Below, piece after piece: positions 1,023 to 35,953 of a DNA stretch of 36,129 bases (positions within the stretch are counted from its first letter, which is position 1; each line of letters begins with the position of its first letter). The stretch covers positions 1 through 36,129 of the forward strand of contig JAHIVG010000068.1 of assembly GCA_018816705.1 (NCBI GenBank), read 5' to 3'. Under the pieces are notes generated by a model, which saw nothing but the letters and a program-made list of their open reading frames with translations, did not search any database and had not been told where the DNA came from. The DNA comes from Nanobdellota archaeon. Lineage in GTDB: Archaea; Nanobdellota; Nanobdellia; Woesearchaeales; JAHIVG01. A program made the position numbers and the translations under genes.

Positions 1023-1055
1023 ATTATTTATATCATCTATACCCGGTGAACCATC

Positions 1056-6389: not shown

Positions 6390-6415
6390 GGACAGAAGGA
6401 ATTGCCGGGCGATAT

Positions 6416-7414: not shown

Positions 7415-7487
7415 GGGTGATGGAGCATGGCTTGGCGATAAAAAGGTTTCGAAAAATTAATAAGAATAGCATGATTACCCCCTCATC

Positions 7488-7757: not shown

Positions 7758-7792
7758 CAAACCTTAAATACTCTTGCTGCGTTCTGGCTTGC

Positions 7793-8803: not shown

Positions 8804-8829
8804 ATATCCCTGAAAATTGTCCCACCCTT

Positions 8830-11125: not shown

Positions 11126-11160
11126 TACAATTTTATTGAATTTTATCTGATAGCAACAAT

Positions 11161-11355: not shown

Positions 11356-11405
11356 TGCTTCGATTCAAGAAAAGCTTATAAATCCCTCTTGGCTGCTGTT
11401 CTCGT

Positions 11406-13886: not shown

Positions 13887-14026
13887 GCAAGAGAGGAGCG
13901 GATGTAAGTTTAAAAGCTTTTTGTCGGCCTTGATGGAAAATAATATGTTTTTACCTTATTGTATATCTAATCACATCGTATAGAAAGGTATAATAACCGG
14001 CATGAACATTCATACAACATCACAAA

Positions 14027-15247: not shown

Positions 15248-15356
15248 TAACTTCAGGGGAGTTGAAATCCTCGTTGTGTGGTGGCGGATTGCAAATCTTG
15301 ATATCCATATAGGACTGGGCAAACCTTTTTAAAGTAATTCCTGATTCTTGAGATGC

Positions 15357-16508
15357 ATGAAAATCCTCTACTCGGCCGAGGACCTGTGGCCCTATGTGGG
15401 CGGCGCGGAAGTCGGACTGGACGAGATGCTCGCGGAGCTGTCAAAGAAGCACGAGGTGCACGCTGTCTGGGTCGGCAAGGAGAAGAAGAAGGACACACCA
15501 TACCATCAGCACCCTCAGCCTTACAGCACTGTCTGGAAGAACGTGCCGTTGTTCAACAGGACCCTGGCCAGGCATTTCTATGCCAACAGCAGATGGACGA
15601 AGGTCCTGCAGAGATACATCGACAGATATAAGCCAGAGCTCATGCTCACGCAGCTGCAGTTCATGCCCGCGTCGATACTGGCAGCGATGCAGAACGGGAT
15701 GAAATCAGTCAGCTTCATCCAGAACTGGGAGCACTTCTGCCCATACCTGTTCATGAACCATGACCCGGAGGAATGCCTGAAGGATTGTTACAAGCACGTG
15801 CCTCTCAGCTATAAGATGCAGTGGCCGTACGTCAAGAAGATACAGAGGATGCATGCCCGAGCCTTCAAGAACACCGACGTGGTCTTCGGAGACTCCCAGT
15901 ACTGCTGTGACGTGCTCAAGATGTTCTACGGCGTCAAGGGATACCCTTTCCACCCGGTCGTGCACCTGGACAAATTCAAGATCGAGCAGAACACGAAAGA
16001 ATATGTCACTTTCATCAATCCCATCCTGACCAAAGGCATAACGACCGTGCTGGAGCTGGTCAGGAAGATGCCGGACACGAAGTTCCTGGTCGTCGGCGGA
16101 GGGAACGTCACGGCAAAGCCGTGGATAGAGAAGGTCAGGAAGGAGCCCAACGTCAAATACATCCCGTGGGAGGACGACATAAGGAAGGTATATTCGAAGA
16201 CCAGGCTGCTCATCGTGCCCTCTACGTGGCCAGAGCCCTGCGGACGGATCGTGTTGGAAGCCGGGATAAATGGGATTCCCACAATAGCAAGTGCTCGAGG
16301 CGGCCTTCCCGAAGCTGTCGGCAAAGGAGGCATATTGGTCAAGGACCATCTGAATGCCGACCTGTGGAAGAAGGCCATCGAGAGGTTCGATGATGATTAT
16401 TACAGGCAGAGATCAAAACTCGCGATTGAGAATGCCAAGGAGCATGACTTCGACCACCAGTTCAGCTACTTCAAGAAGACTTTGGCAGAGAAGGGCATCA
16501 ATCTATGA
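15357..16508 (+). CDS. GT4-type glycosyltransferase (group 1)
   Basis: MKILYSAEDLWPYVGGAEVGLDEMLAELSKKHEVHAV; FVVGG-like strand; STWPEPCGRIVLEAGINGIPTIASARGGLPEAVGKGG. ATG 15357 is 27 nt from TATA TTTTTAAAG (track start 15348 is TTG). Confidence 0.92.
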   Translation: MKILYSAEDLWPYVGGAEVGLDEMLAELSKKHEVHAVWVGKEKKKDTPYHQHPQPYSTVWKNVPLFNRTLARHFYANSRWTKVLQRYIDRYKPELMLTQLQFMPASILAAMQNGMKSVSFIQNWEHFCPYLFMNHDPEECLKDCYKHVPLSYKMQWPYVKKIQRMHARAFKNTDVVFGDSQYCCDVLKMFYGVKGYPFHPVVHLDKFKIEQNTKEYVTFINPILTKGITTVLELVRKMPDTKFLVVGGGNVTAKPWIEKVRKEPNVKYIPWEDDIRKVYSKTRLLIVPSTWPEPCGRIVLEAGINGIPTIASARGGLPEAVGKGGILVKDHLNADLWKKAIERFDDDYYRQRSKLAIENAKEHDFDHQFSYFKKTLAEKGINL

Positions 16509-20447: not shown

Positions 20448-20720
20448 ATGGCAAATAAAAGAGGTCAGGGGCTGCCGATGAACACCATCGTCATCGCTGC
20501 AATAGCGCTGATGGTCATGATCGTTCTCATAATCATATTCGTCAACAAGATGAACGAAGGCGAGGACACCCTCAACAGCTGTGGCATATTCGCAAACGGC
20601 CAGTGCTATGATGGGGATAGCTGCCCCGAAGGCCATCAGATAGTCCCCAACGTCAAGGAATGCAGCCAGGGGAAGGTATGCTGCATACAGCTAAAAGACG
20701 ATGAAGAAGGCACAGACTGA
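20448..20720 (+). CDS. Pilin-like protein with class III-type N-terminus and six-Cys C-terminal head
   Basis: MANKRGQGLPMNTIVIAAIALMVMIVLIIIFVNK then NSCGIFANGQCYDGDSCPEGHQIVPNVKECSQGKVCCIQ. ATG 20448 is about 26 nt from TATA TTTATAAAT (20442 also possible). Confidence 0.7.
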   Translation: MANKRGQGLPMNTIVIAAIALMVMIVLIIIFVNKMNEGEDTLNSCGIFANGQCYDGDSCPEGHQIVPNVKECSQGKVCCIQLKDDEEGTD

Positions 20721-20820
20721 CAGCACCCTGCTGAACTGGATAATAATGCTCCTCATCATAGTCCTTGCTGCAGCCATAGTCATGATAATCCGGGGCGGGA
20801 TAAAGAAGGTGTCTTTCTGA
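20701..20820 (+). CDS. 39-aa single-TM microprotein
   Basis: MKKAQTDSTLLNWIIMLLIIVLAAAIVMIIRGGIKKVSF; overlaps the stop of the preceding gene and the start of the next; absent from the ORF track because of length. Confidence 0.6.
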   Translation: MKKAQTDSTLLNWIIMLLIIVLAAAIVMIIRGGIKKVSF

Positions 20821-21731
20821 TGCGAAAAGGGATAATAAACACGCTGCCAAACCTCATAATAGTCCTCATAGTGATAAGCCTGCTGTTCCTGTTCGGCTAC
20901 AAGCTTAGGGAGGTCATGGCGCCCGCAGGGGTAGACAGGGACATAGGGCCTTTCATCAACGCTTATCTGAGGGATCCGCTGATGAAGTTCGAGATACTGA
21001 AGCTGGAGTTCCCCATACAGACCAGATACATTGATCAGGATACGGTGGAGGATTGCGGGCCATACTGCATAGAGGGTGCCAATGAACAAGGATATTTCCA
21101 GCCTGAGTTCGACATGGACCCGAAGAAATATAACAAGCAGGTCGAAGACCGCCAGGTAGAGATATGGGAGCTGGCCATGAACGAGATAGTCGCGTATGAG
21201 ATGGAAGACTGCTGGCATGACATGGGAGAAGGCCGGCTTCCCTTGTTCGACAAGTGGTACTCGCGGATAAACAGGGAATGGCAAGGCCCGCCGAAGTACG
21301 AGGAATGGGTAGGGTACTACGGAAAGGACCAGCCGCCCGTGTTCTGCGTGATATGCGCACGCATCGAAGTGGACCCGGAAGTCTCTGCAGTGGTAGGCAA
21401 CGAGATAACCTCGCTACCAAGGTATCTGCAGAAGTTCCCCACCAAGCACAGGGAGGGACTGAGCATAATGAATTATATGCGCACAGCAGGAGAGAGTGCG
21501 CTTTACTCCAGGGACTACAAGTACAGCACCGACGAGCCATGGGCTGTGATATTCGCGAGGGTGAATACCCTCCAGACCACGAAGATATTCGATTGGTTCG
21601 CAAGCAAGAAAGTGCCGATAGTGAATTTCCAGATATCGAGGGATGAATATGACCATGAAGACAAGAGCGCGATGTTCCTCGTCCCGTACAGGGAAGTGGA
21701 TATGCTCTGCACCCACCTGGCTAACTCGTAA
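20820..21731 (+). CDS. Pilin-like/membrane-anchored extracellular protein (303 aa)
   Basis: MRKGIINTLPNLIIVLIVISLLFLFGYKLREVM followed by a soluble Cys-containing domain; start overlaps the preceding TGA. Confidence 0.8.
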   Translation: MRKGIINTLPNLIIVLIVISLLFLFGYKLREVMAPAGVDRDIGPFINAYLRDPLMKFEILKLEFPIQTRYIDQDTVEDCGPYCIEGANEQGYFQPEFDMDPKKYNKQVEDRQVEIWELAMNEIVAYEMEDCWHDMGEGRLPLFDKWYSRINREWQGPPKYEEWVGYYGKDQPPVFCVICARIEVDPEVSAVVGNEITSLPRYLQKFPTKHREGLSIMNYMRTAGESALYSRDYKYSTDEPWAVIFARVNTLQTTKIFDWFASKKVPIVNFQISRDEYDHEDKSAMFLVPYREVDMLCTHLANS

Positions 21732-21867
21732 GGGGACAGCCGGAGGGTGGCAGATAATAGTGATGCTGATACTGGGACTGGCGGCTGTGGCGTTCATAAT
21801 ATACGTCGCGGTCCAGATCAAGGGCGGAGGACTGGGTATAATTGAGTACATCAAGAAGACTTTTTAA
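21643..21867 (+). CDS. Small pilin-like membrane protein, start uncertain
   Basis: C-terminal part TRKGTAGGWQIIVMLILGLAAVAFIIYVAVQIKGGG resembles class III signal plus TM. In-frame ATGs only at 21643/21649/21655, inside the upstream gene. Confidence 0.45.
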   Translation: MNMTMKTRARCSSSRTGKWICSAPTWLTRKGTAGGWQIIVMLILGLAAVAFIIYVAVQIKGGGLGIIEYIKKTF

Positions 21868-24628
21868 GAAGGCTATCGCTGTAGAGCCGCTGATAGCGAT
21901 ACTGATCCTAGTGGTAGTGCTCGGCGGAGTGTACCAGAGCGAATCCCTCAAGAAGACAGCCACTGACCTGGCCAACAAGAGCCTGGAGAACCTGAAGAAA
22001 GAGCCGCCGGTCTTCGATCCCGAGCTGAACACTGAGGAGCAGGTCGTCATGGACTCTGTCAACGGCCTGATAAAGTCGATAAATTACTTGGTGAGCGGAG
22101 AGACAGTCAACAAGTTCTCAGACAGGGAGCTGAGCAGGAGCAGCCTCGTCGATGAAGGCTCGGTGGTGCACAGCTATGAGATAACCTACTATGCGGAGCT
22201 CCAGAAACCCACTGCAAGCATATGTAAGGCCAGCTTCAACAAGGATGACGTCACTATCACAAAACCTTATGACATCGAGGAGAAGTTCTCCCCTGTGATC
22301 GACCATTACATCTGGGCAGACTCCAAGAAGATGGACTGCAACGACAGGATTGAGTGCCTGGACAAGGTCTGTGGTGTTACTGAGGTCAATAACTTCAAGC
22401 TGACAACATATGACCAGGCAGGCAACATGCTCTGCCAAGTGGACACCATAGACAAGGGCGAACACAAGGACAAGGACCTGCAGGTGTGGGGACTGGCAAT
22501 AGGTGGAGGAGCTGCCAAGTTCTGCCCAGGCAACAGTGATTTCAGGCCGGGAGACGGGTGCGACAGGAACGGCAACGGCATCTACGGTGAGTATGGTCCT
22601 CGGTTTGACGGGGTAACTTGGCAAGACACGCTTGAAGGCGACCAGGACAAGGACAAGAAGATAGAGTTCTTAACATCCAGCGATGGAGACAGGCTGAGAG
22701 AGCTATACTTCCAAGGCGGAAGGGTGAAGGCAGGCTCTGGAGAGGGTTGCTTTGATTCTCCGACCTATCTTGAATGCACGGGTGTCAGGGTGTACTACTG
22801 CGGACGGTGGGGCAAGGGCAAGCAGAACCCCAATGAGAATGAGTACTTCAGGAAGACCTTTGACGAGAACGGCAACGAGGAATACCACAGCGCAGCAGGA
22901 GCCAAGTTCATGGCAGTGCTGGGCCCGAAGCTGACAGAAGAGACAGAGGCCTTCAACAGGTTGGGTGAAGAGAACATAGTGAAAAGGGTGAAAGGCAAAG
23001 GTGAAGAAAATTTTGTCGTGGGACAGCACAGCTTCCAGCGAGGCACGTTTGTTGACTATTTCACCAGCGGGGGTGCGGTGCACCCATTCAGCGGCGATGT
23101 AGACATGGCAGACTCGGCCACATTCTGCCAAGGCGGAAAGGTGGAGGGGGCTGGAAACGTCATGATCAAGTGCATGCCAGACATCCAGACCTGCGGCATG
23201 TGCGGCTTCCACCTGCCACAGGAAATTCCCCAGGGAGATGGAGCTGTAATAGACCACTTCAGCGGGGTCGGCGACCCGAAATACCTCATATATTACGAGT
23301 CTTTCCCCCTGGGTGAGGAAGAAGGCTGGGAGATGGAACCCTTCGAGATGAACCTGTACGGTGCTGCTGTCTATAATGTGGTCTGGAACTCCGTAGGTGC
23401 GGGCCTAAAGGTAGGCATCAATAAGGGCAGCAAGATTGTCAAGACCATACAAAAAGCCTTTGACCGGACACTCAGATTCGTAGGTAAAAAGCCGGCGAAG
23501 ACCGCTGCTCAGAAGCTGACTGAGAGACTTTCACTATTGGGATTGAAGGACTCTGATGAACTGGCTGAATACATAATAAAGAAACAAAAGGGAGTCAAGT
23601 TCTGGGCTGATGCCGGATTCCCTCATAACAAGGCTTTTGTAAATTTCTTTGATGATCCCGAATTCCAAAGGATGATTTCAAAAACATTACTCGACCTCGG
23701 GGATGACACAGCTGTGCAAACGGCTTCAGAAGCTTTTGTCAGCGCCTTCAGGGCTTCTGCAAAGAAAGGCATACCCTGGGCCCTGAGCAAGCAAGTGATG
23801 TTCCACACAGCAGCCTTCTACACGATAACTCATGAGATCATGCTAGAAGAGAGCAAGCTGGGGAAATTCGACCCCATCGGCTCGAACAATATCGGGAGCA
23901 AATCCCCCTTCCAAGGCACTATGGTGTCAGGCAACCAGTTCGAGGAACTGGACCCTGAAGTAGAGAAATACTTCCTCTCTTTGGTGAGGGACCACCGCAA
24001 TGGCGGACCGATTACCAAGACCCTCTATGACCAAGGTGACCAGAGGCTGTTCTTCGCCAGCCCGTGCAAGGCCAACCTCGCATTATGGATAGACAAGTGC
24101 GCGTGCTATGAAGTAGAAGGCCCGGACTTCCTCTATGTCAAGTTCACCGAGCCGCATGATTATTCCACAACCTTCGAAGACGGTTACACCCCGGTCTTCG
24201 CAGAGAGCATCAACCCGTACGACGAGATTCCCGAGCATAGGTATGAGAATGCCACCAAGGTCTGCCCAGGCGGGAGCTGGTTCAAGACCTTTAACCCGCT
24301 CAGCAACCCTGTGAACAAGGTGGACTGCGTCAGGGTGGACCCTGCGATAATCGAGGGATACTGCTACGGCGGGTCTGATGTTATTGCCCAAGTCGGGAGT
24401 GTTGCAATATATGGCGCCACCATGGTAGCCGTCGCAGCATCAGAGGTAGGGATCGGTGCATTGTCAGTTGCCGTAGGCGCAGGAACAGCAGGGACTGGCA
24501 CCATCATCGTGCAGACGATAGTGAAGTCAGCTGTCGCGACCAGTCTTGATTACGCGTCAGAGAGGCTCGTATATGAGCTCAACAAGGATTCCAAGTGGCC
24601 CAACCACCCAGGGCTGACAGCAGGATAG
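21842..24628 (+). CDS. Large pilin-anchored surface protein (928 aa), TTG start
   Basis: LFKKAIAVEPLIAILILVVVLGGVYQS N-terminus; Cys-containing ectodomain; glycine-rich hydrophobic C-terminal stretch; start overlaps the upstream gene end. Confidence 0.8.
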   Translation: MSTSRRLFKKAIAVEPLIAILILVVVLGGVYQSESLKKTATDLANKSLENLKKEPPVFDPELNTEEQVVMDSVNGLIKSINYLVSGETVNKFSDRELSRSSLVDEGSVVHSYEITYYAELQKPTASICKASFNKDDVTITKPYDIEEKFSPVIDHYIWADSKKMDCNDRIECLDKVCGVTEVNNFKLTTYDQAGNMLCQVDTIDKGEHKDKDLQVWGLAIGGGAAKFCPGNSDFRPGDGCDRNGNGIYGEYGPRFDGVTWQDTLEGDQDKDKKIEFLTSSDGDRLRELYFQGGRVKAGSGEGCFDSPTYLECTGVRVYYCGRWGKGKQNPNENEYFRKTFDENGNEEYHSAAGAKFMAVLGPKLTEETEAFNRLGEENIVKRVKGKGEENFVVGQHSFQRGTFVDYFTSGGAVHPFSGDVDMADSATFCQGGKVEGAGNVMIKCMPDIQTCGMCGFHLPQEIPQGDGAVIDHFSGVGDPKYLIYYESFPLGEEEGWEMEPFEMNLYGAAVYNVVWNSVGAGLKVGINKGSKIVKTIQKAFDRTLRFVGKKPAKTAAQKLTERLSLLGLKDSDELAEYIIKKQKGVKFWADAGFPHNKAFVNFFDDPEFQRMISKTLLDLGDDTAVQTASEAFVSAFRASAKKGIPWALSKQVMFHTAAFYTITHEIMLEESKLGKFDPIGSNNIGSKSPFQGTMVSGNQFEELDPEVEKYFLSLVRDHRNGGPITKTLYDQGDQRLFFASPCKANLALWIDKCACYEVEGPDFLYVKFTEPHDYSTTFEDGYTPVFAESINPYDEIPEHRYENATKVCPGGSWFKTFNPLSNPVNKVDCVRVDPAIIEGYCYGGSDVIAQVGSVAIYGATMVAVAASEVGIGALSVAVGAGTAGTGTIIVQTIVKSAVATSLDYASERLVYELNKDSKWPNHPGLTAG

Positions 24629-25330
24629 TTATCTTACCAGCACGTACGTGCCTTCTATGAACGACTCGTCAACTATAGAACTCTTGTCGAACTGGCTGAC
24701 GATGACTCCGCCCCAGACAGGGTTCTGGTCGATAATCCAGTCTATGTCTTCATCCAAGTAATCGATGTATACTCCGTTCTGCTGGAGCGAGAAGTCAAAG
24801 GTCTTCTCATGCAGGCCTGCCGAGTCCCTCAGGTCAGAGCCCCAGACTACATAAAGCTGGCTGCCAGAGCGCAGCTTCCAGTCGTCATCCACGAACATGT
24901 ACAGCATAGGCTTGCCTTCCTTCCTGGTGTAGACGGCGAAGAACTCCGGGATCCCATCATTGGGGATGGGCTCGTTGTGTATCCTGAACAGCACTGACTC
25001 ATCCTGCTTATAGATGTTGTTGAAAAAATTTCCTTGGTAAGCACCGGCAAATACTAGGACAGTCATATCTCCTGAAGGCTCAAAGTAGCGTTGGTGGCCG
25101 CCGCGCACATCGCCCCGAAGCTGCGTGGCCTCTGACACGTTAATGTGCTGGACATTTCCCTGCCTTTCAATCCAGTCAGGAGGATAATCAGACACAAAGG
25201 GATCCATAGGAGATACCAGCTCCGGCTCCCCCCGCAAGATGAGGACCATGAGGATGACTATGGCTGCGATAAGCACTGCGAAGAAGGCGAACACCATCTG
25301 ATGGTGCTTCTGCACTGCACCCCTTTTCAT
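24629..25330 (-). CDS. Single-TM-anchored extracellular hypothetical protein
   Basis: MKRGAVQKHHQMVFAFFAVLIAAIVILMVLIL then a soluble domain. ATG 25330 is 27 nt from TATA (GATTTAAA on minus). Confidence 0.75.
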   Translation of the reverse strand: MKRGAVQKHHQMVFAFFAVLIAAIVILMVLILRGEPELVSPMDPFVSDYPPDWIERQGNVQHINVSEATQLRGDVRGGHQRYFEPSGDMTVLVFAGAYQGNFFNNIYKQDESVLFRIHNEPIPNDGIPEFFAVYTRKEGKPMLYMFVDDDWKLRSGSQLYVVWGSDLRDSAGLHEKTFDFSLQQNGVYIDYLDEDIDWIIDQNPVWGGVIVSQFDKSSIVDESFIEGTYVLVR

Positions 25331-25446
25331 GGGCAACCTGAAACATCCTCGGTTTTTAAATCTTTTCGTAAATCATCCGAAATTCCTGGAATAACTCATC
25401 GTTTTCGACGGAAAAAGTTATAAAGAATAAAGACCATTGTCCCCCC

Positions 25447-25539
25447 ATGAGGAAAGAAGCCCTGCTCTTCATCACAATAGGTCTGCTGATAGTATTGGCT
25501 TCTATCTTGTTAATAATTCGGAGGGCCGGCCATGCGTAA
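25447..25539 (+). CDS. 30-aa single-TM microprotein
   Basis: MRKEALLFITIGLLIVLASILLIIRRAGHA; ATG 26 nt from TATA TTATAAAGA; stop overlaps next start at 25532. Confidence 0.6.
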   Translation: MRKEALLFITIGLLIVLASILLIIRRAGHA

Positions 25540-25810
25540 GAATCTGCTTGAACAGGTGGTCTTCTATGGCATACTCCTGTTAGGTCTGTATGTCACCTAC
25601 CAGATAATCAAGATATTGCTTGGCGGTTCATGGGCTGTGGAGGATGTGATACTTGCCCTTCTCATATTTAACCTAGGTTTAAGTGGGATGATACTTCGAA
25701 CCTCAACTGGAAATATGCATGACATCAAACACCTCGACCGCGGTTTCAAGGCACTTGCTAAGGACTTCAAGGATCACCGAGATCTGGTGGAGAAACATCT
25801 CATATCATAA
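25532..25810 (+). CDS. Small membrane protein (92 aa), two hydrophobic segments and charged C-terminus
   Basis: MRKNLLEQVVFYGILLLGLYVTYQIIKILL...VILALLIFNLGLSGMIL...; coupled to the upstream microprotein. Confidence 0.7.
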   Translation: MRKNLLEQVVFYGILLLGLYVTYQIIKILLGGSWAVEDVILALLIFNLGLSGMILRTSTGNMHDIKHLDRGFKALAKDFKDHRDLVEKHLIS

Positions 25811-25842
25811 GTTTTAAATAAATCACTTGGTCAGATATTCTC

Positions 25843-26049
25843 ATGAGAAAAGGCGACCTCAGCATGCAGACCCTGGCGATACTCATCCTGACCCTGATCG
25901 TGATAGTAGTCCTCGGCTATGTCTTCCGCACCCAGATAACAAAAACTCGCCCTAAAGGACAGGATATTCATCATCCCAAGAAAAATCTCGCGAAAGGCGA
26001 GATTTTCAATAATGCACTGGGCAGAGACCATATTCAACCTGGCGCCTGA
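25843..26049 (+). CDS. Class III signal-containing pilin-like protein, C-terminus altered by a small insertion
   Basis: MRKGDLSMQTLAILILTLIVIVVLGYVFRTQI; paralog of the 26104 gene; TATA TTTTAAATA 27 nt upstream. Confidence 0.7.
   Translation: MRKGDLSMQTLAILILTLIVIVVLGYVFRTQITKTRPKGQDIHHPKKNLAKGEIFNNALGRDHIQPGA
25940..26012. mobile_element. ~69-bp MITE-like/palindromic insertion plus one 4-bp ATAA flanking repeat
   Basis: Splits a 24-nt sequence that is contiguous in the adjacent paralog (CAGATAATGCACTGGGCAGAGACC at 26200-26223). Flanked by ATAA 25936-25939 and 26009-26012. Ends AAAAACTCGCC (25941-25951) versus inverted AAAATCTCGCC. Perfect 10-bp hairpin AAAATCTCGC-GAAAG-GCGAGATTTT 25982-26006. 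Confidence 0.65.
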
Positions 26050-26103
26050 AGTCGAGCCCCTGCAGCCGTAAGATTTAAATAACGAGCGCAGGTATAATCA
26101 GGC

Positions 26104-26307
26104 ATGGCTAAAAAAAGAGGGAACATGAGCATGCAGGCGCTTGCGGCGATCATCCTGACAATAATCGTCATCATTGTTGTCGGTTATATCTTCAGGACGC
26201 AGATAATGCACTGGGCAGAGACCCTCCTGGGCATCGGCGACAGCATAGCACCGGGCACAGACTGCCTGACGAACGCTGATGCCTGCAAGACAATACTGGG
26301 AGGTTGA
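26104..26307 (+). CDS. Class III signal-containing pilin-like protein (67 aa)
   Basis: MAKKRGNMSMQALAAIILTIIVIIVVGYIFRTQIMHWAETLLGIG; TATA TTTAAAT 27 nt upstream. Confidence 0.78.
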   Translation: MAKKRGNMSMQALAAIILTIIVIIVVGYIFRTQIMHWAETLLGIGDSIAPGTDCLTNADACKTILGG

Positions 26308-26309
26308 AG

Positions 26310-26750
26310 ATGCGCAAGGGCGAGACCTCGCACGAGATGTACTACACACTCGCATTCCTTCTTATCGGTGCCCTCATAATCGGCGGGGTGTTCGTGCCCA
26401 AGATACAGCGCATGAGGAACATGCTCCTCGAGAAGAACGAATGCCTCAACCCCCTAAACATGGTGGTCAACGAGATCTCTGAACAGTGCAAGCATGCTGA
26501 TATCGAGAAAGAGCAGAGGCTGGTGATGCCGTTAGACCTGTCCGAGGAATGCATCCTGGAAGTGGTGGAGGACAGGCTCTGCGTCTCGAGGCATGGCAGC
26601 ACACTGGAATGCAAGCAGCCAGAGCACTGCTACGACTTCTCCAGCGGTAACTTCCTGATGAAGGGCTTGCCCTACCTTTCCAGGGTCGAGATAGTAGTCA
26701 ACAAGGTTGATGGCAATAACATCGTCACGCTGACGGATATGTCGCGGTGA
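26310..26750 (+). CDS. Pilin-like protein (146 aa) with Cys-containing C-terminal domain
   Basis: MRKGETSHEMYYTLAFLLIGALIIGGVFVPKI... N-terminus (RKG-ETSHE). Confidence 0.75.
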   Translation: MRKGETSHEMYYTLAFLLIGALIIGGVFVPKIQRMRNMLLEKNECLNPLNMVVNEISEQCKHADIEKEQRLVMPLDLSEECILEVVEDRLCVSRHGSTLECKQPEHCYDFSSGNFLMKGLPYLSRVEIVVNKVDGNNIVTLTDMSR

Positions 26751-26770
26751 CAATTAACTGCGAAGGATTG

Positions 26771-27289
26771 TTACGAAGTGAATATTTCAAGTGCTTCATT
26801 TAGGATCTGAATCGGCCTTTTATCATCAACATCAATGATGATTTCATCCCTGACATTCTTAGAATACGTCTTGAGGTACAGTCCCTTGAGTTCTTTAGGG
26901 GGGATAATCATCGACCTCAAGGTATTGATATGCTCAACTGTCTTCCAACTTGCCTTCAACAGGATCTGATGCGTCTCTGAATTGTATTTTTTCCCCAAAC
27001 CAATCACTTTCCTCAGGCTTGTTGCTTGATCCTTGTGCTTCCTGATCCAACAATCTTCAGCAATAACAGTGTATCCTGATCCCAGATAATTCTCCAATGC
27101 ATGAAGAAAGTTGTCGAATGATATTTTATAATCATTTGCGTCCCTGTTCTCATGGGCTGTCATCACCCAGCGAAATTCGTCAACAATGAGCAAAGCGGTC
27201 TTTCCCATCAGTCTTTTAGCCAAATTCCTGGCCAAAGTACTCTTGCCAGATGCTGGAGGGCCTCTGATGATGATCAGTTTTGGTGCCAT
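26771..27289 (-). CDS. P-loop ATPase/kinase (AAA_33 / zeta-toxin-like nucleotide-binding fold)
   Basis: IIIRGPPASGKSTLARNLAKRL Walker A; LLIVDEFRW; TVIAEDCWIRKH. ATG 27289 is 27 nt from TATA TATATAAAT. Confidence 0.78.
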   Translation of the reverse strand: MAPKLIIIRGPPASGKSTLARNLAKRLMGKTALLIVDEFRWVMTAHENRDANDYKISFDNFLHALENYLGSGYTVIAEDCWIRKHKDQATSLRKVIGLGKKYNSETHQILLKASWKTVEHINTLRSMIIPPKELKGLYLKTYSKNVRDEIIIDVDDKRPIQILNEALEIFTS

Positions 27290-27412
27290 GATAATCACCC
27301 TGCTGTTAACGTATATAAATGTTGGTGCATGGGCATCACCACGACCGATAATTGTGTGTCTTAAAGGTGAGGTGGGGAAACCTTTTTATACGTCTCTGAC
27401 GATATTTGTAGC

Positions 27413-28294
27413 ATGCATGGCAAAAGAGGTGCACACACAGAGGAGATGGCCTGGCCCATCATAAGCATGATAATAGTCATCGTCGTCATCTTCATGGGCG
27501 TGGGCGAGAAGATCCACCACCTGGGTGATAGCGACGTCATGCTGGCAAATTTCTATGCGAGGGACATCGCATTGCTCATCGACGCTGCGGGAGCAGGTGT
27601 GAGCGATCTCTCGATGAGATATCCGCACGACCTCGAAGGCTTCACAGTGGAGCTGCAGGAACGCATGGTCATCGTCCGGAAAGGCGACACAGAAGGCTCA
27701 TACCCGGTCAGGAACCCGCATAATCTCAACGTGGAAGAGGGCACGAACGACCAGCCCTACCTGACCATCTACAGCGCCGGGGACAGGCTGGGCTTCGGCG
27801 ACAGAAGGCTGAACACGCTGAGGTGCCCCGATGTACAGCCGGCATACAAGGGATTCGATAAGGTGATCCTCGACCCGAGAGATGGGGTCATGGAAAAGGT
27901 GGCCCAATGGGCTATCAACAGGGTGAAAGGAGGCATAGAGACAACTGAAGCCCTCATGGAGACAGAGGAAAGAAGGCAGAAGATGGCTACCTTCAGGTTC
28001 GGGATTACCCTGGCGAGCGCTGAAGGGGACATGGTCAAGGCGTACATCGACGCGAGCGAGACCGGTTTCATTGAGAGGCAGGGGCTTGCCTGCAAGCTCG
28101 TCAACCACCTCGGTGAGCGCTTCGGATCAGTGGCCGTGGTCCCTATAGACATGGAGCTGCTGGACGAGGATGACCCCAGGCAGATACTACCTGCCACGCA
28201 GAGGGGAATTTACATCGAGATGGGCGAGAACGCAGAAGACCCGAAGACCGGTGAGGCCATAGTAGAGGCCTTGGAGGATTTCTTTGAGGGCTGA
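27413..28294 (+). CDS. Pilin-like extracellular protein (293 aa)
   Basis: MHGKRGAHTEEMAWPIISMIIVIVVIFMGVGEKIHH N-terminus with E residues before the TM; TATA 26 nt upstream. Confidence 0.78.
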   Translation: MHGKRGAHTEEMAWPIISMIIVIVVIFMGVGEKIHHLGDSDVMLANFYARDIALLIDAAGAGVSDLSMRYPHDLEGFTVELQERMVIVRKGDTEGSYPVRNPHNLNVEEGTNDQPYLTIYSAGDRLGFGDRRLNTLRCPDVQPAYKGFDKVILDPRDGVMEKVAQWAINRVKGGIETTEALMETEERRQKMATFRFGITLASAEGDMVKAYIDASETGFIERQGLACKLVNHLGERFGSVAVVPIDMELLDEDDPRQILPATQRGIYIEMGENAEDPKTGEAIVEALEDFFEG

Positions 28295-28751
28295 CAGGTT
28301 CCTCTACTGGATAGTCAGGCTGATGCTCATATTCGGGATAGTCTTCGGCATAGGGATATTCATCGGGATGTTCAGGGCGAAGTTCCTCGACACCAACAAC
28401 ACTGAAAGCCATATAATACTCTCAAGCATACCACCGCTGGCATCCATGCCACTGGAAAGATCGCTTGGTCAGGATTATGCTGTCATAAACCTTGCTGACT
28501 TCGGCAAGCACCAGTTCGGCCATCTAAACGTATCGAGGTACATAGGGGTGAGGATAGAGCTGCTCGGCCAGGATGGAATGCCCTTGGCAGAACCCATACT
28601 CCTCAACGACGAATTCGTGGAGCTGCACGAGGACCTCACCTTCGCCAGGCAGTGGGACTCATCAGAGATAAGGCAGCCTGTGGTCGTGATTGACGGCGAC
28701 CAGAAGAAGCCCGGAGTGCTGCATGTGAAAGGGGTGTTCAGGGTAGAATGA
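28284..28751 (+). CDS. Membrane-anchored protein (155 aa), TTG start
   Basis: MRADRFLYWIVRLMLIFGIVFGIGIFIGMF; overlaps the previous gene end by 11 nt. Confidence 0.7.
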   Translation: MRADRFLYWIVRLMLIFGIVFGIGIFIGMFRAKFLDTNNTESHIILSSIPPLASMPLERSLGQDYAVINLADFGKHQFGHLNVSRYIGVRIELLGQDGMPLAEPILLNDEFVELHEDLTFARQWDSSEIRQPVVVIDGDQKKPGVLHVKGVFRVE

Positions 28752-29188
28752 GAAAAGGCCAGCTCGTGCTGACGTTCGCAATCCTCGTACTTATCTTGAT
28801 ATGCGTGATAATGTTCGTAGTGCTGATGAACATGGGCAAGACCAAGGGCACGGTGGTCAAGAACTCCTTTGAAGACCTCAATGACGGATCATTTGCCATA
28901 GCGCTGATGAAGCAGGAAGTGCTGGGCCAGCAGCTCGGAGTGATGCTGGCAAGCGAGTTCGCAGGCAGCAAAGACTACGACCTGATAAGCGCTGCAGTCG
29001 GTGAGCTGTTTGAGGGTGTATACGGACAGAAAGTGTGCTTCGAGGTGAGTATAAGCGACGGAGTTGGCAGCGACTCCCTAAAGGATGAGGGAGAATGCCT
29101 CGGCGAGAAGCACAGGTCAACCTTGTTGCTGCCTCCGATGTTCGAGGAAGGAATGACACCATTGCAGGTGGAGGTGCAGGTCTGGTGA
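28748..29188 (+). CDS. Pilin-like protein (146 aa)
   Basis: MRKGQLVLTFAILVLILICVIMFVVLMNMGKTKG; ATGA overlap with the previous gene. Confidence 0.78.
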   Translation: MRKGQLVLTFAILVLILICVIMFVVLMNMGKTKGTVVKNSFEDLNDGSFAIALMKQEVLGQQLGVMLASEFAGSKDYDLISAAVGELFEGVYGQKVCFEVSISDGVGSDSLKDEGECLGEKHRSTLLLPPMFEEGMTPLQVEVQVW

Positions 29189-31266
29189 AGAAAGGCCTGT
29201 GGTTCGAACCCGTGTTCGTGACGGTTGTTTTAGTATTGTTCATCATGGCGGCAATGCAGCTCATCAAGGAGAAGAAGGACGTGGACCTCGCAATAGGACA
29301 GCTGCAGTCAGACGTGCTGAAACAGGACAGGGAGATGCAGCTCCTGACGCCGTATGTGAGCTCGATGGCAAAGCTGTCAGTCAGCTATGGGGTGAGCAGC
29401 TGGGCAGCTGACGGGATGAAGCACGATGACGGATGCGGAAGATATGGAGGATACAGCCTATGGCAGGTCAACAAGGACCTGAAGATCTGCTTCCCTAAGT
29501 CCATCCCTGCGCTTGCAGAGCATATCTCAGACTATTCCACTGATTACGTCCAGGCCCTGCCTTATGACAAGATAGAGTACGAGGTCAGCATCATCGGTAA
29601 AGAGGTGATAGGCGTGCCGTTGGGTAAGCTGTACAGCCCGCCGCGGGACAAGCAGAAGATCATCCAGATGCTGCCTGAAGAAGAGGCTGAGTGCATATCA
29701 AAAGGGCTCCTTCCGGACGTGAACTACGGCAGGTTCTTCGGGTGTGTAAAATGCCTGGCATGCAGGCATCAACCAATGAGATACTGCGTCCTGGACCCGT
29801 GCGGGCAAGGATGCGCCTGGCAAGGCGGCGAGTGCGTGGACGGCAAGGATGTGCAGGCATCTTTCTATCCGGCTTTTGAGGAACTGCTTGGCTTTGAGAC
29901 AGATGGATTCGATGAGTATCTTGACACGGTAAGAGAATTCTCCTCAAAAGTGTCATTATGCAACGGCGATATCGACAGCTGCATCGACCGTGAGCTGACA
30001 AGATTGAAAGGAAGTGGTGAGAGCTCAAACATTTACAGGGCTGAGGAATGTGAGACAGAAGAAGAGACAATATTCTATGAATCCGTCGGCAGGATGCAGG
30101 AGTGCCTGGCAAGCCTGGAAAATTGTTATTGCTCGTTGGAGCTGCCGGACATGAAGATGACTGTCGAGCCGGGAGAAGGGAAAAGCATCGTTTCCGGCTT
30201 TGTTGATGATGAGGTCAAGTTCGTGCAAGAACTGGATCATGAGCTGCCTGAGTTCGAGGGAGAGGGCAATACGGTGTATATGTATGAGGAAGAGGATGCG
30301 ATAATGATTGGTGATGCAGCTCCTGCTCTTGAGGAATGTATGCTCGAGGACAGGACAAGGAGGTTCTGTTCCTGGCTAGGTGTTGAGGAACTGGCATATG
30401 ATCCACTGACAGAGTCGACGACCAAGGAGAAAGTGGCTATCAAATTCGCATTGTTCATACCGAGGAACGACCCGCCACCGCCTCTGGAAAATCTTGAGGT
30501 TTTCGACCAGCAGCGGTCGGACAAGAAGCTGCTAGTCATGTGGGATAAAAGTCCTTCTGAAAATGTGGAAATGTACAAGGTCTATGTGGCAGAGGAGAGC
30601 TTCGAGGGAATACCGACATCAACGCTGGCAGGCAAGGAGCTTGTCTGGAAGACTGAGCTCACTGTGGAGGGCATGGAAGAGGTTGAGGCAGGTCTGAAAG
30701 AGCCGCTGTCATGCAGGTTCAAGGAGATAGGCAAGCCCTGTTCTTACGAGCTCAATGATGGCAGCAAGCTCGAGGCTGAGACAGGAAAGCTCTTCTTATT
30801 CCCGGGCGACAGGATGGGCGTAGTGATTGCGGTCGAGGAAGATGATGTCGAATACCATGTGGGTGCAACTGCTTTAGACAAGTGGGGTAACGAGATAGAT
30901 AACGTTGCCGAGAGGATGCCGATAATGACCGGAACATCGACTGACGGGCTGCCGCCAGGACTTGGCAGCATCGTGAACGGACCTATCCTCGAAAGCGGGA
31001 ACAGCTATTCTTTCACGCTGAGGATGCCGACTGAGAACGCTGACGGGAGTGAGCTCGGGGAAGAGGAACTAAGTGCTACGCTTCTCTATGGAACCAGCTG
31101 TCCTGGCACGAATCCTGTGTGGACAGGGAGCTCGGTATCCGGAGGCATCTTGGGAGCTGTGATCTCGCTTCCTGGAGCAGAAGGCTATTGTTTCAGCCTG
31201 CTGGTGAGCGACGGGCAAGGCAATCCTGACCTTGGTTGGGAAGAATACGGACTATTCCTCAGCTAG
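29185..31266 (+). CDS. Large pilin-anchored Cys-rich surface protein (693 aa), GTG start
   Basis: MKKGLWFEPVFVTVVLVLFIMAAMQLIKEKK; Cys-rich segment CVKCLACRHQPMRYCVLDPCGQGCAWQGGEC; C-terminal FnIII-like segment (PPPPLENLEVFDQQRSDKKLLVMWDKSPSENVEMYKVYVAEE). GTGA overlap with upstream. Confidence 0.78.
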   Translation: MKKGLWFEPVFVTVVLVLFIMAAMQLIKEKKDVDLAIGQLQSDVLKQDREMQLLTPYVSSMAKLSVSYGVSSWAADGMKHDDGCGRYGGYSLWQVNKDLKICFPKSIPALAEHISDYSTDYVQALPYDKIEYEVSIIGKEVIGVPLGKLYSPPRDKQKIIQMLPEEEAECISKGLLPDVNYGRFFGCVKCLACRHQPMRYCVLDPCGQGCAWQGGECVDGKDVQASFYPAFEELLGFETDGFDEYLDTVREFSSKVSLCNGDIDSCIDRELTRLKGSGESSNIYRAEECETEEETIFYESVGRMQECLASLENCYCSLELPDMKMTVEPGEGKSIVSGFVDDEVKFVQELDHELPEFEGEGNTVYMYEEEDAIMIGDAAPALEECMLEDRTRRFCSWLGVEELAYDPLTESTTKEKVAIKFALFIPRNDPPPPLENLEVFDQQRSDKKLLVMWDKSPSENVEMYKVYVAEESFEGIPTSTLAGKELVWKTELTVEGMEEVEAGLKEPLSCRFKEIGKPCSYELNDGSKLEAETGKLFLFPGDRMGVVIAVEEDDVEYHVGATALDKWGNEIDNVAERMPIMTGTSTDGLPPGLGSIVNGPILESGNSYSFTLRMPTENADGSELGEEELSATLLYGTSCPGTNPVWTGSSVSGGILGAVISLPGAEGYCFSLLVSDGQGNPDLGWEEYGLFLS

Positions 31267-32733
31267 ATCGTAGAGATAGAGCATGGCCCTGTTTTCGGAA
31301 TAAGAGGTTTCTTCGAGCAGATCGTAGTTGTTGTCAAGGTATGCCTTGAACAATCCTTCTGGGTCTGTGGCCTGGCCGCGGCTGACGACATACCATAACC
31401 GTGTCTTGCCCGCGAACTCATCTTCGAACAGGTGCTCGAAATTGCCCTGCATGACGATGTTATCCACGTCACTGTGCCTTGAGAAGGAGGTCATCATGTC
31501 ATCTGTCAGGTATTCATCAGGTATTCCATGAATCGGGGCCTCGCCTGTGTAGTAATGCCTGAGTACGAGGGTGAGAAGGTTCATGTGGACACCTATCACG
31601 TCGCCAGGCTGGTCGTTGTCTTCGATGTGGCCGGTCAGTCCTGGCCAGGCGATGTTGTCATAGGCATAGAAAGATGCGATGGGGACTGCCATCAGGGCCA
31701 CGACGACGATCAGGGAAGCTATCTGCAGCCTTCTGCTCAATGTCGAGATCCCATAAGCTATCATGGCGTACAAGCCGAGGGTGACGAAGAGGAAACGCTT
31801 GGGCTCTATCTGCATGTAGGAGAAGAAGGACATGAGCCAGACCAGCATCAATGGAAGAATTGTTGTGATGGCAAAGAAATGCAGGGGCTGTCTTTTCATC
31901 TTGAGGCCGCGATAGACCAGGTAAGCGAAGAAAATTAGTGAGATGGCCAGCAGCGGGAGCCAGGCCCAATCTATTGTGAAATTGGTCAGGTAAGGGGCGT
32001 GCGGGCCGAACAGGTACTCATAGAAGTTGTAGGGCAGTATTAGAATTCTCCATGACGGGTGGAGCTAAGGGCTGTACTCAGCCATGAAGCCCAGATAGTT
32101 CAGCTGGAAATAAGCGTATATCAGGTTGGGTATGAGCAGCAATGCGATGACGGCTTCTGAAATGATGAAATTCTTGAAAGACTTGAAATGCTTCTTGAAG
32201 AGGACAGCGACTAGGAGAAGAGCTGCCATCATCAGCACGGAGAAATGCGAGGTATAGCCTGACAGCACAGCCATGATGATGTAACCGGCCCAAGCTTTCT
32301 TGCTGTCTGTCCTCATGGCCTTGAGGAAAAAATACATCGAAGCGAAGACCAGCATGGGCTGTAGCATGTAAGGCCGTAGCTGCTGCGACATCTTGATGAA
32401 CAACGGCGAGATGGATACGAGGAAAGCGGTGATGAGTGATGCCTTCTCTGACAGGAGCTGACGGCATGCGAGGTAAGCGAACATGACTGTCGCGACGCCT
32501 GCAAACACCGAGAACAGGCGGAGGGCCCATACCTGACCGGTGAGATATCGGAAAAAGGATGCGAGCAGGTTGAACAACGGAGGATGCTCCTCAGCCGAGA
32601 AGGTGGCATGGAGGGCTGTGGAAGGGCTCTGCGCAACTGTGTAGGTGAAGGCCTCGTCCACGTAAAGAGGTTCTCCGATGCTTATCAGCCGTAGGATGAG
32701 CGCCAGCGCAAGGATGATTATGAGCTTCTTCAT
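31252..32733 (-). pseudogene. GT-C (GT39/GT83-like) membrane glycosyltransferase interrupted by one in-frame TAG at 32065-32067
   Basis: N-terminal half 32065-32733 (EPLYVDEAFTY...FMAEYSP) and C-terminal half, open from 32064 (LHPSWRILILPYNFYEYLFGPHAPYLTNFTIDWAWLPLLAISLIFFAYLVYRGLK-MKRQPLHFF...), are in the same frame with no indel. Confidence 0.7.
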
Positions 32734-34518
32734 CTACCTCACCCTGAAAAGGACATTCGGAGTGGGCTGGCCCTGGAATACAGATTGGTATTCTACAACC
32801 AGGCTTTCAGAGAGCTGCGCAAGCTTGTCCAAGGTCTCGTTGTCGCCGTAGTTGGCACGATAGAAGCTACCATCAAACCAAAGATAGCGATAGCCCTGCT
32901 CCTTGAGGAAATCGTTAATGCTGTCGGCATCAGCGTCATGGAATCCGGTCCTGAACTCGATGACTTCATCGCACCATTCGCAGGAATGCATGTTCATGCC
33001 GAACAGGAAGCTGTCCATCCTGGCCGGGAAGACCTTTGTGTTGAGAGGGAGGTTGTCCTTGATGTAAAGGAGGCCTGGCAGGACTTCGGGGTTGGCGCCG
33101 ATCCAGCCGCCAGGAGGCCACACATCAGTGTTCACCCTGTACTTCTGGTAGCCTGAGGTCATTACAAGGCCGAACAGGAGCATTGCGAGGACCAATATGC
33201 CTAATGGGCGGTAGAAACGCCTGGCCAGCGTAACAGACAGTATCAAGCCTTCTGCGGCCAATAGCGCTATCGGGATGGCGAGGACCATCCACATCCTGAA
33301 GGAGAAGAAGGATATTCCGAGAGCAACTCCATTCACGGTTATGAGAGCGAAGGCAAACCAGGCAATGGTCGTGTAATGCTTATCGCGGTTCTTTGACATC
33401 AACACAAAAACGAGTCCGACAAGGGCAAGGAGCATGGCGACTGCGCCGATTCCGATCGGGTTGTTTATCATATTCGTCGGTTTTGCCACGAAAAAATCTG
33501 CAAAGGTGTATATCCGGCTGGCGCTGCCCATGAGGTTCTCTGACGAGAATCCACCGAAATATTCCATGATGCCCTTGACACCGCCCCAGGAAAGCAGCAT
33601 TGGAAGCCACCACATCAACGAGAGCAGGCCTGCGAGGACCATTGAGGAAAGGAACCACCAGTCAAGCTTCTTCAATGCGCGGATGATCCAATAGATACCC
33701 AACAGGATGCCGAGGATAGGGCCTGTCGCAGGCTGGGTGCAAAGCATGCTCGCCAGGACCAATGCCCCTGCAAGATACCACCTCCTGTCCTGGTGGGTGT
33801 AACAGTACATGGCTATGAAGAACAAAGGCATGATCATGGCGATGGCCCAGATGAAATGGGAGAGGAAGCTCGGCAGCATGGCCAATATCAAGGTTGCATA
33901 GAAAGCCTTCTTACTGCTCCTCATCAGCCTGCGGGCGAAGAAGAAGAAGAACAGCACCGCAAGAGATATGGTGAGAGCGTTGAAGAACTTCATGGTCCAC
34001 ATCAGGTCAGGACTGGTCTGATGGAGATACGCAAGGAAGATGAAGTAAGAAGGGGGGTAGGGGTCGATATAGTTGGAAATCCTGACTCCTTCTGGCACGA
34101 AAGCTGTCTTCTCCACTGAGATGTACTTCACTGTCTTGGCTATGCCCCACGGGTCGTCATCCTCTAAGTAAGGGTAAGAGAAAGCGCCCTTGGCGTAGAT
34201 GAACATGGATAATAAGAATATTATCAGGGCACCGACAGCGTAGATAGAAGGTTTTCCTTTGGGTTGGAACTTCTTATCCTTGATCAGGTAGATGACCGGG
34301 CCGACCAGCGCTAGGGCTAGGATGACCTTGAAGTCCAGCGGCACGTGGATGAGGTTGAGGAAGATGCTCAGGATAGGCAGGATTCCCAGGCCCAGACCGA
34401 AGCGGATGACATGGCGCTCCACGAGCTCTTTGGGGAGGGTGACAAGCTTTGAGACAGAGAAGCCGAGTCCGTAGCAGTAGACTAAGTACAAGACGATAGT
34501 AAGCAGGCTCATCCCCAT
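32734..34518 (-). CDS. Large polytopic GT-C-like membrane glycosyltransferase (594 aa)
   Basis: Many TM segments with first-loop acidic motif YLEDDDPWGIAKTVKY; stop abuts the next start; TATA TTTATATAAAT about 25 nt upstream. Confidence 0.75.
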   Translation of the reverse strand: MGMSLLTIVLYLVYCYGLGFSVSKLVTLPKELVERHVIRFGLGLGILPILSIFLNLIHVPLDFKVILALALVGPVIYLIKDKKFQPKGKPSIYAVGALIIFLLSMFIYAKGAFSYPYLEDDDPWGIAKTVKYISVEKTAFVPEGVRISNYIDPYPPSYFIFLAYLHQTSPDLMWTMKFFNALTISLAVLFFFFFARRLMRSSKKAFYATLILAMLPSFLSHFIWAIAMIMPLFFIAMYCYTHQDRRWYLAGALVLASMLCTQPATGPILGILLGIYWIIRALKKLDWWFLSSMVLAGLLSLMWWLPMLLSWGGVKGIMEYFGGFSSENLMGSASRIYTFADFFVAKPTNMINNPIGIGAVAMLLALVGLVFVLMSKNRDKHYTTIAWFAFALITVNGVALGISFFSFRMWMVLAIPIALLAAEGLILSVTLARRFYRPLGILVLAMLLFGLVMTSGYQKYRVNTDVWPPGGWIGANPEVLPGLLYIKDNLPLNTKVFPARMDSFLFGMNMHSCEWCDEVIEFRTGFHDADADSINDFLKEQGYRYLWFDGSFYRANYGDNETLDKLAQLSESLVVEYQSVFQGQPTPNVLFRVR

Positions 34519-34600
34519 GGGAGTGAATATCTGATGGATTTATATAAATGTTTCGAGAGATACCAAAACTTAATAAACAAAACAAGGTTGTCAGGTTGGC

Positions 34601-35953
34601 ATGAGGAAGGGATGGTACATCATCGTTGGGGTTTTGCTGCTTGCGCTAGCGCTGCGGCTCTATCAGCTAGATGGGCAGAGCCTATGGTTCGACGAAGGCT
34701 ACGCAGTGTATGAGGCCAAGCAGGAAGGCCTAGGCGGAGTGATGGGTGCCACTTTGGAGAAGAGCGAGGGCACGCCGCCGCTATACTTCTTCATGCTGCA
34801 CTATTGGATCAAGCTCTTTGATGATGGATTGTTTGCCATGAGACTGCTGTCAGCGATATTCAGCGCCCTTGCAGTAGGGGTGCTATTCCTGTTCGCGCGG
34901 GAGGTCGCTGGCCGGAAGGTTGCGTTCTTGAGCAGCCTGATGATGGCGCTGTCCATGACCCACCTTGTGTATGCGCAGGAGATAAGGCCTTACGCCCTGC
35001 TCTCGCTGATGGTGCTGCTGTCGAGCTACTTCTATGTCAGGCTGCTGAAGACAAGGAAAGGGGCTGGCTATATCAGCGCGACGACCCTTATGCTTTATAC
35101 CCATTACCTGGGATTCTTCGTATTCCTCGTCCAAGTGCTTTATGCTTTATGGCGGAAGAAGCTTAGGCCGCTGCCGTATCAGCTGAGCGCTGGCCTGCTC
35201 TCGATACCCAGCCTCGTGATATTCATCAAGCAGTTATCCTTCAACCAGGCCGAGTTCCAGTCAGCGCTGACCGTCAAGCTGGGGCTGCCGGCATATCTTG
35301 GACAGCTCGGGCTGGTGCTGTTCGTGATGCCGTTCGCTGGTCTGGTTGTGTTGGGCTGGTACTTATGGAAGAAGAGGATTACCAAGATCAAGGACAGCTG
35401 GTTCTTCGTGGGTTGCATCCTCATCATGGCTGCGTATCTATTATTGTTGCCCCGGCTGATGAGCTCTGTCTTCTTGACGAGGTATTCGCATTTCCTGTTC
35501 CCGTTCGCGTATGTCGTCTTTGCATATCTCTTCCTGCGGATGAAAAAACCGATGTTGAAGAAGGCCTTGGCTGTCGTGTATATCGCGCTTGTGGTGGTCA
35601 CGCTAGCCAGCTATTATCTGGCAGATGACAGGAAAGAGCAGTGGACAGAGGCTGTCGGCCTCGTTGAGGGCGAACTGCAGGATAACGACATTGTGGTGCT
35701 CATCGACTCTGACTCAAGATTCATCTGGGAATACTACCAGCAGAAAGAGTACACGGTCCTGCCGATCAGGGGGAAGCTGGGAGAAGACCACTCAAGGCAC
35801 ATACAGTTGCTGAAGCAGCACGAGGGCAGGATATGGTTCGTCTTCTCACACGGATATGTGGCACAGCCGCTGTACGAGGAAGAGCTGGGTAGAGTGAGGC
35901 AGAAGGAATTCAGCAAGGAATTCAACGGCATTGAGATAGTAAGGTATAGTTAG
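34601..35953 (+). CDS. GT-C (GT39/GT83-like) membrane glycosyltransferase
   Basis: ALRLYQLDGQSLWFDEGYAVYEAKQ; EGTPPLYFFMLHYWIKLF; VYAQEIRPYALLSLMV; multiple TM segments. TATA TTAATAAA 27 nt upstream. Confidence 0.85.
   Translation: MRKGWYIIVGVLLLALALRLYQLDGQSLWFDEGYAVYEAKQEGLGGVMGATLEKSEGTPPLYFFMLHYWIKLFDDGLFAMRLLSAIFSALAVGVLFLFAREVAGRKVAFLSSLMMALSMTHLVYAQEIRPYALLSLMVLLSSYFYVRLLKTRKGAGYISATTLMLYTHYLGFFVFLVQVLYALWRKKLRPLPYQLSAGLLSIPSLVIFIKQLSFNQAEFQSALTVKLGLPAYLGQLGLVLFVMPFAGLVVLGWYLWKKRITKIKDSWFFVGCILIMAAYLLLLPRLMSSVFLTRYSHFLFPFAYVVFAYLFLRMKKPMLKKALAVVYIALVVVTLASYYLADDRKEQWTEAVGLVEGELQDNDIVVLIDSDSRFIWEYYQQKEYTVLPIRGKLGEDHSRHIQLLKQHEGRIWFVFSHGYVAQPLYEEELGRVRQKEFSKEFNGIEIVRYS

Follow-up and report, generated by a model that had tools for sequence, protein, structure and literature searches.

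The window analysed here, 36,129 nucleotides long, is the whole of contig JAHIVG010000068.1 (C112) of a Nanobdellota archaeon in the order Woesearchaeales, whose genome assembly comprises 1.74 Mb in 114 contigs and is 94% complete. A reading of the sequence alone had described a dense cluster of about 14 pilin-like proteins at positions 20448-31266. The open reading frames (ORFs) listed in that description are confirmed within this interval and are named p01 to p16 below. To judge from gene content and order in relatives, the cluster is a local representative of a conserved operon, and it very probably belongs to a dedicated, conserved type IV filament-type machine of DPANN archaea. Lengths are in amino acids (aa); TM stands for transmembrane.

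20448-20720, + strand: p01, 90 aa, small, Cys-rich, pilin-like protein, class III-like (MANKRG-QGLPMNTIVIAAIAL)
20701-20820, + strand: p02, 39 aa, small TM protein, class III-like, with a positional counterpart in relatives
20820-21731, + strand: p03, 303 aa, pilin-like, with CW and CxxC motifs and invariant C131, C176, C179 and C297
21703-21867 (about), + strand: p04, short class III-like TM ORF between p03 and p05, with no convincing start codon
21842-24628, + strand: p05, 928 aa, with an N-terminal anchor, Cys-rich beta regions, a helical middle and hydrophobic C-terminal helices
24629-25336, - strand: p06, 235 aa, anchored extracellular domain
25447-25539, + strand: p07, 30 aa, small TM ORF, not class III-like
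25532-25810, + strand: p08, 92 aa, small TM ORF, not class III-like
25843-26049, + strand: p09, 68 aa, pilin-like (MRKG-DLSMQ)
26104-26307, + strand: p10, 67 aa, pilin-like (MAKKRG-NMSMQ)
26304-26750, + strand: p11, 148 aa (MRKG-ETSHE), in position and size as p11 of relatives
26771-27298, - strand: p12, P-loop kinase (AAA_33, E 1.5e-10)
27413-28294, + strand: p13, 293 aa, pilin-like N-terminus and Amidase_3-like domain (about residues 134-292)
28284-28751, + strand: p14, 155 aa, minor pilin-like protein that serves as a single-copy marker throughout the phylum
28748-29188, + strand: p15, 146 aa, minor pilin-like, between p14 and p16
29185-31266, + strand: p16, 693 aa, with a pilin-like N-terminus, a conserved domain containing C84 and C102, and an FN3-like part at the C-terminus

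N-termini were classified with a simple pattern, used in place of FlaFind or SignalP: [KR][GAS] within the first 40 residues, followed by an uncharged hydrophobic stretch of at least 16 residues. Thirteen of the 16 cluster ORFs pass this test, as against none of the 20 window ORFs of at least 110 aa that lie outside the cluster, so the pilin-like run is real, and the class III or prepilin-type signal of the type IV filament superfamily is present by this simple pattern. The description of the cluster as pilin-like therefore stands for most of its members, but not for p07 and p08, which fail the test, nor for p12, a kinase on the minus strand that fails it as well. It is also doubtful for p06, which lies on the minus strand and whose relatives have an ordinary N-terminal anchor.

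Pfam and NCBIfam searches with p03, p05, p06, p13 and p16 of the window returned nothing past weak noise (for p05, a single unrelated weak Pfam match), and a PDB sequence search with p03, p05, p13 and p14 gave no significant match. The weak Pfam match of p10 to Flp1_like (E 4e-4) lies below the cut-off. The FN3-like part of p16 is a reading of the alignment and not a Pfam match. The p01 position holds one to three paralogues in relatives, and p01 is a candidate major pilin; together with p09 and p10 it is also a candidate for the shaft. Relatives likewise have small TM ORFs at the p04 position, and none of them contains a recognised counterpart of p07 or p08.

The subunit that modelled well is p14. 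Its AlphaFold2 model, built from an alignment of 45 sequences, has a predicted local distance difference test score (pLDDT) of 87.7 and a predicted template modelling score of 0.72, and consists of a 47-residue N-terminal helix (residues 2-48) followed by a beta head. The predicted architecture is that of a type IV pilin, including the alpha-1 helix arrangement proposed as a check on the original description. The model of p05, from 18 homologues, is unusable overall (pLDDT 45), and its Foldseek matches are no better than noise.

Conservation, gene order and distribution

Profiles were built from relatives only, with the window left out and reversed sequences as controls. These profiles recover p03 (E 5.9e-44), p05 (2.4e-64), p06 (5.8e-46), p13 (4.8e-17), p14 (4.8e-14) and p16 (1.3e-14) of the window, the best reversed-sequence control being 3e-4, for p11. 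The window p11 shows no homology to p11 of relatives that a profile search could detect, and the window p15 matches the positional p15 of locus L053 (blastp E 4e-10). The profile and synteny tests rule out an artefact of reading hydrophobic ORFs.

Sixty genomes of the same order were searched with p03 and p05; each query had seven matches, in shared neighbourhoods. A scan of named genomes yielded 13 loci, about half of them in genomes sampled before; they come from metagenome-assembled genomes of Woesearchaeota and Nanoarchaeota, from archaeon GW2011_AR15, whose chromosome is complete, and from two Aenigmatarchaeota. In its fullest form, the order begins with a large secreted protein and four pilin-like ORFs (about 165, 336, 164 and 172 aa), and continues through p01 (in one to three copies), a small TM ORF, p03, another small TM ORF, p05, p06 and SMQ-type pilins to p11, p13, p14, p15 and p16, after which come RPA and often RadA. 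This order is free of inversion in 29 of 36 loci; the remaining seven have one inversion each, mostly short cross-hits among hydrophobic N-termini. The conserved neighbourhood that the sequence-only reading had asked for is thus found, with the gene order maintained in many families and in several orders.

The p14 profile matches 203 of 279 genomes of the phylum (165 of the 220 good ones), nearly always once, with the weakest matches taken unchecked, and other cluster genes adjoin p14 in 38 of the 39 p14 loci fetched. Of 236 genomes of the phylum, 20 match the p05 profile, several only weakly, and the complete genome G010 lacks p05 and p06 and keeps the rest of the cluster. Where present, p06 invariably adjoins p05, often on the opposite strand. 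From these distributions, p05 and p06 are accessory, and the terminal set p13-p14-p15-p16 is the core.

Several neighbours of the cluster deserve mention. RPA (OB-fold, Rep_fac-A_C), often with RadA, lies directly 3' of p16 across several families and orders (for example L055, L031, L050, L176 and L181); both genes are absent from the window. Very large secreted proteins also adjoin the cluster. The p12 kinase (AAA_33, zeta-toxin or CPT type) is inserted within the cluster, and none was seen in the clusters of relatives. Sugar-nucleotide, glycosyltransferase and PMT-like genes flank the cluster in the window (1-16500 and 31252-35953), and their products could glycosylate the pilins.

Motor, platform and prepilin peptidase

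The window contains no ATPase or platform gene, in agreement with the sequence-only reading, and the genome search which that reading proposed finds type IV pilus-type ATPases, platforms and an A24 prepilin peptidase elsewhere in the same genome. Pilin loci may sit apart from ATPase loci in archaeal type IV pili (PMC4858521). Because the source genome has several T2SSE ATPases and platforms, synteny in relatives was used to pick the cognate pair. In other orders of the class (L176 in genome G180, L177 and L181), a single operon encodes an ATPase of about 775 aa, a platform of about 710 aa and p03, and continues through p11, p13, p14, in some cases p15, and p16 to RPA. In the Aenigmatarchaeon locus L057, an ATPase (739 aa) and a platform (650 aa) lie upstream of p05 and an M23-bearing p16. 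The linked ATPases are VirB11-type proteins of about 740-780 aa, with AfGspE, CpaF and FlaI as relatives in the PDB, and the linked platforms are TadC-type proteins of about 650-730 aa. The complete genome G019 has the cluster and a single T2SSE ATPase, of the 775-aa type.

The homologues in the source genome lie on contig C25 and encode a 774-aa ATPase and a 705-aa platform, the latter 34-52% identical to the cluster-linked copies. The T2SSF match is above the cut-off for the L057 platform (E 4e-6) and weak for that of the source genome (E 0.03); the platform family is present in 111 of 115 genomes of the Aenigmatarchaeon's group. One copy of the A24 prepilin peptidase (PF01478, E 3.1e-15) is found on contig C33 (G000:C33:15305-15628). 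The genome therefore holds a cognate VirB11/PilB-type ATPase, a TadC/PilC-type platform and a prepilin peptidase, as a type IV pilus requires.

Other candidates for the motor were considered. Type IV pilus loci on C94 and C109 were set aside, since synteny in other orders favours the ATPase of about 775 aa, although these loci may be used jointly with the cluster pilins. The ATPase on C15 belongs to a different pilin-like cluster (L038, 1-7005), which comprises a 567-aa PilB3-type ATPase and, at the end of the contig, part of a large secreted protein. A platform pair with no ATPase in view lies on contig C22 (L040). A short coiled-coil-like gene adjoins the ATPase of about 775 aa on C25 (L039, 15321-15761) and, in distant relatives, at L175, L176 and L181, often with a second, UBA-like gene beside it; both may encode cytoplasmic partners of the motor.

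Terminal domains and the probable function of the proposed filament

In relatives, the C-terminal ends of p16 and p13 carry a variety of peptidoglycan-cleaving domains. M23 is found at p16 ends in L031, L055, L057, L058, L067-L069, L087, L133, L137, L138 and L140, SLT in L047, L137, L138 and L174, and NlpC/P60 (L058), 3D (L052) and DUF2272 (L131) in single cases. The ORF following p16 encodes GH25 in AR15 (E 1e-48), a weak 3D match in L054 and SLT in L136. The p13 proteins of L071 and L076 carry M23, and those of L135, L165 and L136 carry Amidase_3 above the cut-off (borderline in L047). Of 21 loci that have a complete p16 and were selected on grounds other than M23, nine have such a domain in p16 or in the next ORF.

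The association also holds when M23 is the starting point. Seventy of the order's 145 genomes contain an M23 domain, and the four control archaea contain none. When the M23 model alone was used to draw 30 loci, the domain proved to be joined to a p16- or p13-type N-terminus in 13 and to lie next to one in two more. In genomes listing both p14 and M23, the two lie within 8 kb of each other in 18 of 37, as against about 1% expected by chance. Contamination as the origin of these matches was rejected, as many of the domains are fused to archaeal pilin-like N-termini. A regular-expression search of 15 M23 proteins finds both zinc-binding motifs, HxGxD and HxH, intact in 13 and one or both missing in the other two; the metal-binding motif is also kept in some p13 amidases (L135 and L166). 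No separate wall-binding Pfam domain was found in the p16 proteins scanned. The suggestion that the 693-aa protein might be a tip or ectodomain subunit agrees with the findings for p16: its relatives bear these enzymatic C-terminal domains, and p16 is a candidate tip subunit.

Metal-binding and active-site residues of hydrolases are thus present in p16 and p13 of relatives, and not in the copies of this organism. A profile of relatives' p13 C-termini, several of which are Amidase_3 matches, finds the C-terminal domain of the window p13 at 25.7 bits. This domain is probably inactive, as it reads DPRDG where relatives read DPAHG, the first metal-binding His being replaced by Arg.

In many relatives p16 and p13 end in exposed domains that cleave peptidoglycan, so the job of the filament is probably docking on bacterial walls and, where the enzymes are present, opening them locally. 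Peptidoglycan is absent from archaea, and an enzyme specific for it therefore points to bacteria. In the proposed mechanism, the A24 peptidase of C33 would cut the prepilins, which the 774-aa VirB11-type ATPase and the 705-aa TadC-type platform of C25 would then assemble into a filament. By analogy with minor pseudopilins, p13-p14-p15-p16 may form an initiation and tip complex that starts the filament and remains at its tip, with p16 outermost, so that the exposed ends of p16 and p13 would contact the bacterial wall. The filament would dock on the wall of bacterial partners or prey, and in enzyme-bearing lineages it would open that wall locally. We infer all three of filament formation, the position of p16 at the tip and bacteria as the target. 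As a whole, a DPANN type IV filament machine whose tip proteins engage bacterial walls is a reasonably likely reading; for the bacterial wall as the target, taken by itself, the balance is slightly favourable. A stronger version, in which interchangeable peptidoglycan hydrolase tips make the filament a contact-dependent breaching machine that pierces bacteria to feed, kill or exchange DNA, is tentative and somewhat doubtful.

Several observations weigh against a wall-engaging machine of this kind. In several orders (L176, L177, L178 and L181), p16 is a short, bare protein, and wall cutting is therefore neither an ancestral nor a universal function. The Foldseek search of the p14 model against the PDB gave no match at E <= 0.001, its head matching no solved pilin, and the other type IV pilus ATPases and platforms of the genome could also serve these pilins. 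In this organism, Pfam recognises no hydrolase in p16, p13 has no intact one, and M23 was not found anywhere in the source genome. The sole SLT match of the genome is borderline (G000:C28:1984-2352; L184, L185) and unlinked to the cluster; it ends an extracellular protein that is 826 aa or longer and is cut by the contig start. Given the degenerate p13 domain, the hydrolase-free p16, the lack of M23 and the borderline SLT match, binding is a safer reading than cutting for the ends in this organism.

One alternative is a general adhesion or host-attachment pilus directed at archaeal or bacterial partners, of the kind suggested for other DPANN pili, in which the hydrolase domains would be wall-binding lectins incidental to the core. 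The FN3-like p16 ends of the window, L044, L050 and L052, the degenerate amidase domains of many p13 proteins, the short bare p16 and the very large secreted proteins flanking the cluster are all consistent with such a pilus. However, the zinc-binding motifs are retained in most M23 domains and in some p13 amidases, and the presence of several unrelated wall-cleaving families on the same stem suggests selection for cutting; we consider an adhesion pilus unlikely, if deserving of real attention. A competence-like pilus for DNA or nutrient uptake, which would scavenge the nucleotides of neighbours and have RPA and RadA retained alongside, would fit the position of these genes right after p16, which recurs in many families and in further orders, and DPANN archaea often rely on scavenged nucleotides (PMC8204110, PMC9563170). 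It is nevertheless improbable, as RPA and RadA are housekeeping genes that may merely mark an old chromosomal neighbourhood, and the window has neither.

There is little likelihood of type II-like secretion, with a pseudopilus serving as a piston that releases soluble proteins. The fixed order of several minor pilin-like subunits, with the largest last, does recall GspH-I-J-K, but the hydrolases are carried on pilin-like stems that have been retained and are not separately encoded secreted substrates, and archaea have no outer membrane to cross. That the genes form no machine at all, and are a co-expressed run of unrelated membrane-anchored surface proteins, is scarcely credible: the subunits do share low sequence identity, and p11 lacks detectable homology to its counterparts, yet the order is conserved over several orders, the motor and platform lie inside the same operon, and the distribution is single-copy.

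The distribution across the phylum, the dedicated motor and the peptidoglycan hydrolases go beyond the earlier description. Most surface proteins of DPANN archaea are annotated as 'hypothetical'; for the question of how these archaea grip other cells, a single-copy pilus system with its own motor in about three quarters of the sampled phylum offers a concrete, testable gene set. If its presumed tip does carry peptidoglycan-cutting domains, bacterial hosts or prey would be predicted for many uncultured lineages.

Comparison with known systems

Makarova, Koonin and Albers (2016) divided the ATPases of archaeal type IV pili into clades 1-4, in a treatment that does not cover Woesearchaeota or Aenigmatarchaeota (PMC4858521), and a survey of the type IV filament superfamily does not treat the DPANN lineages of this study (PMC6668835). 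As far as the open-licence literature shows, the phrase 'undescribed archaeal surface apparatus' was apt; with the comparison limited to open-licence papers, priority is not proven. The system resembles archaeal pili of clades 1-4 in its VirB11-type ATPase, TadC-type platform, pilins with class III signals, several minor pilins and very large partner proteins. It differs from them in its subunit families, which have no Pfam or NCBIfam match, in its unusually long ATPase and platform, and in the peptidoglycan hydrolases on its terminal subunits.

The EppA-dependent pili of clade 1, from Methanococci and Thermococci, are complex: five or more minor pilins are present together with two large proteins (PMC4858521). 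The present system is likewise complex, with several minor pilins and large proteins, but Pfam detects DUF2341 neither in p16 and p05 of the window nor in large proteins from G049, G054 and G290, and a single long platform ORF, in place of two TadC proteins, lies beside the ATPase in L057, L176, L177 and L181. No archaellin match was found by Pfam among the cluster proteins scanned, FlaH not being part of the search. In the GspH-I-J-K series of type II secretion minor pseudopilins, an ordered row of small pilin-like subunits ends in a single large one, which is taken to be the tip. The same arrangement of small subunits with a large one last is seen here, but there is no sequence or Foldseek match: the search with the p14 model recovered no GspI-J-K type pseudopilin fold, and the large subunit varies and is frequently enzymatic.

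Saccharibacteria, which are ultrasmall episymbionts, use type IV pili to reach their host (PMC12206443). The likeness to the present system, drawn from description only, lies in host-reaching by ultrasmall cells, and the difference in that those pili are bacterial type IV pili. We know of no hydrolase-bearing subunits in them.

The closest precedents for the enzymes themselves come from other surveys. Strock et al. (2025) found peptidoglycan hydrolases to be prominent in Nanoarchaeota and did not mention pili or pilins (PMC12352652). Module 98 of Castelle et al. (2021), whose families are mostly of unknown function, includes transglycosylase proteins of up to 3000 aa in Woesearchaeota and Pacearchaeota, again with no mention of pili (PMC8204110), and the 'vampiristic' Woesearchaeota proposed by Vigneron (2022) were likewise described with pili unmentioned (PMC9723730). 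The enzymes of the first two studies share with those described here their peptidoglycan-cleaving domains, their occurrence in Nanoarchaeota, Woesearchaeota and Pacearchaeota, and their reading as aimed at bacteria. Here, in contrast, many such enzymes are placed on pilin-like stems inside a type IV pilus-type operon, and a peptidoglycan-cutting tip, if confirmed, would take the notion of 'archaea that attack bacteria' beyond lists of enzymes to a mechanism.

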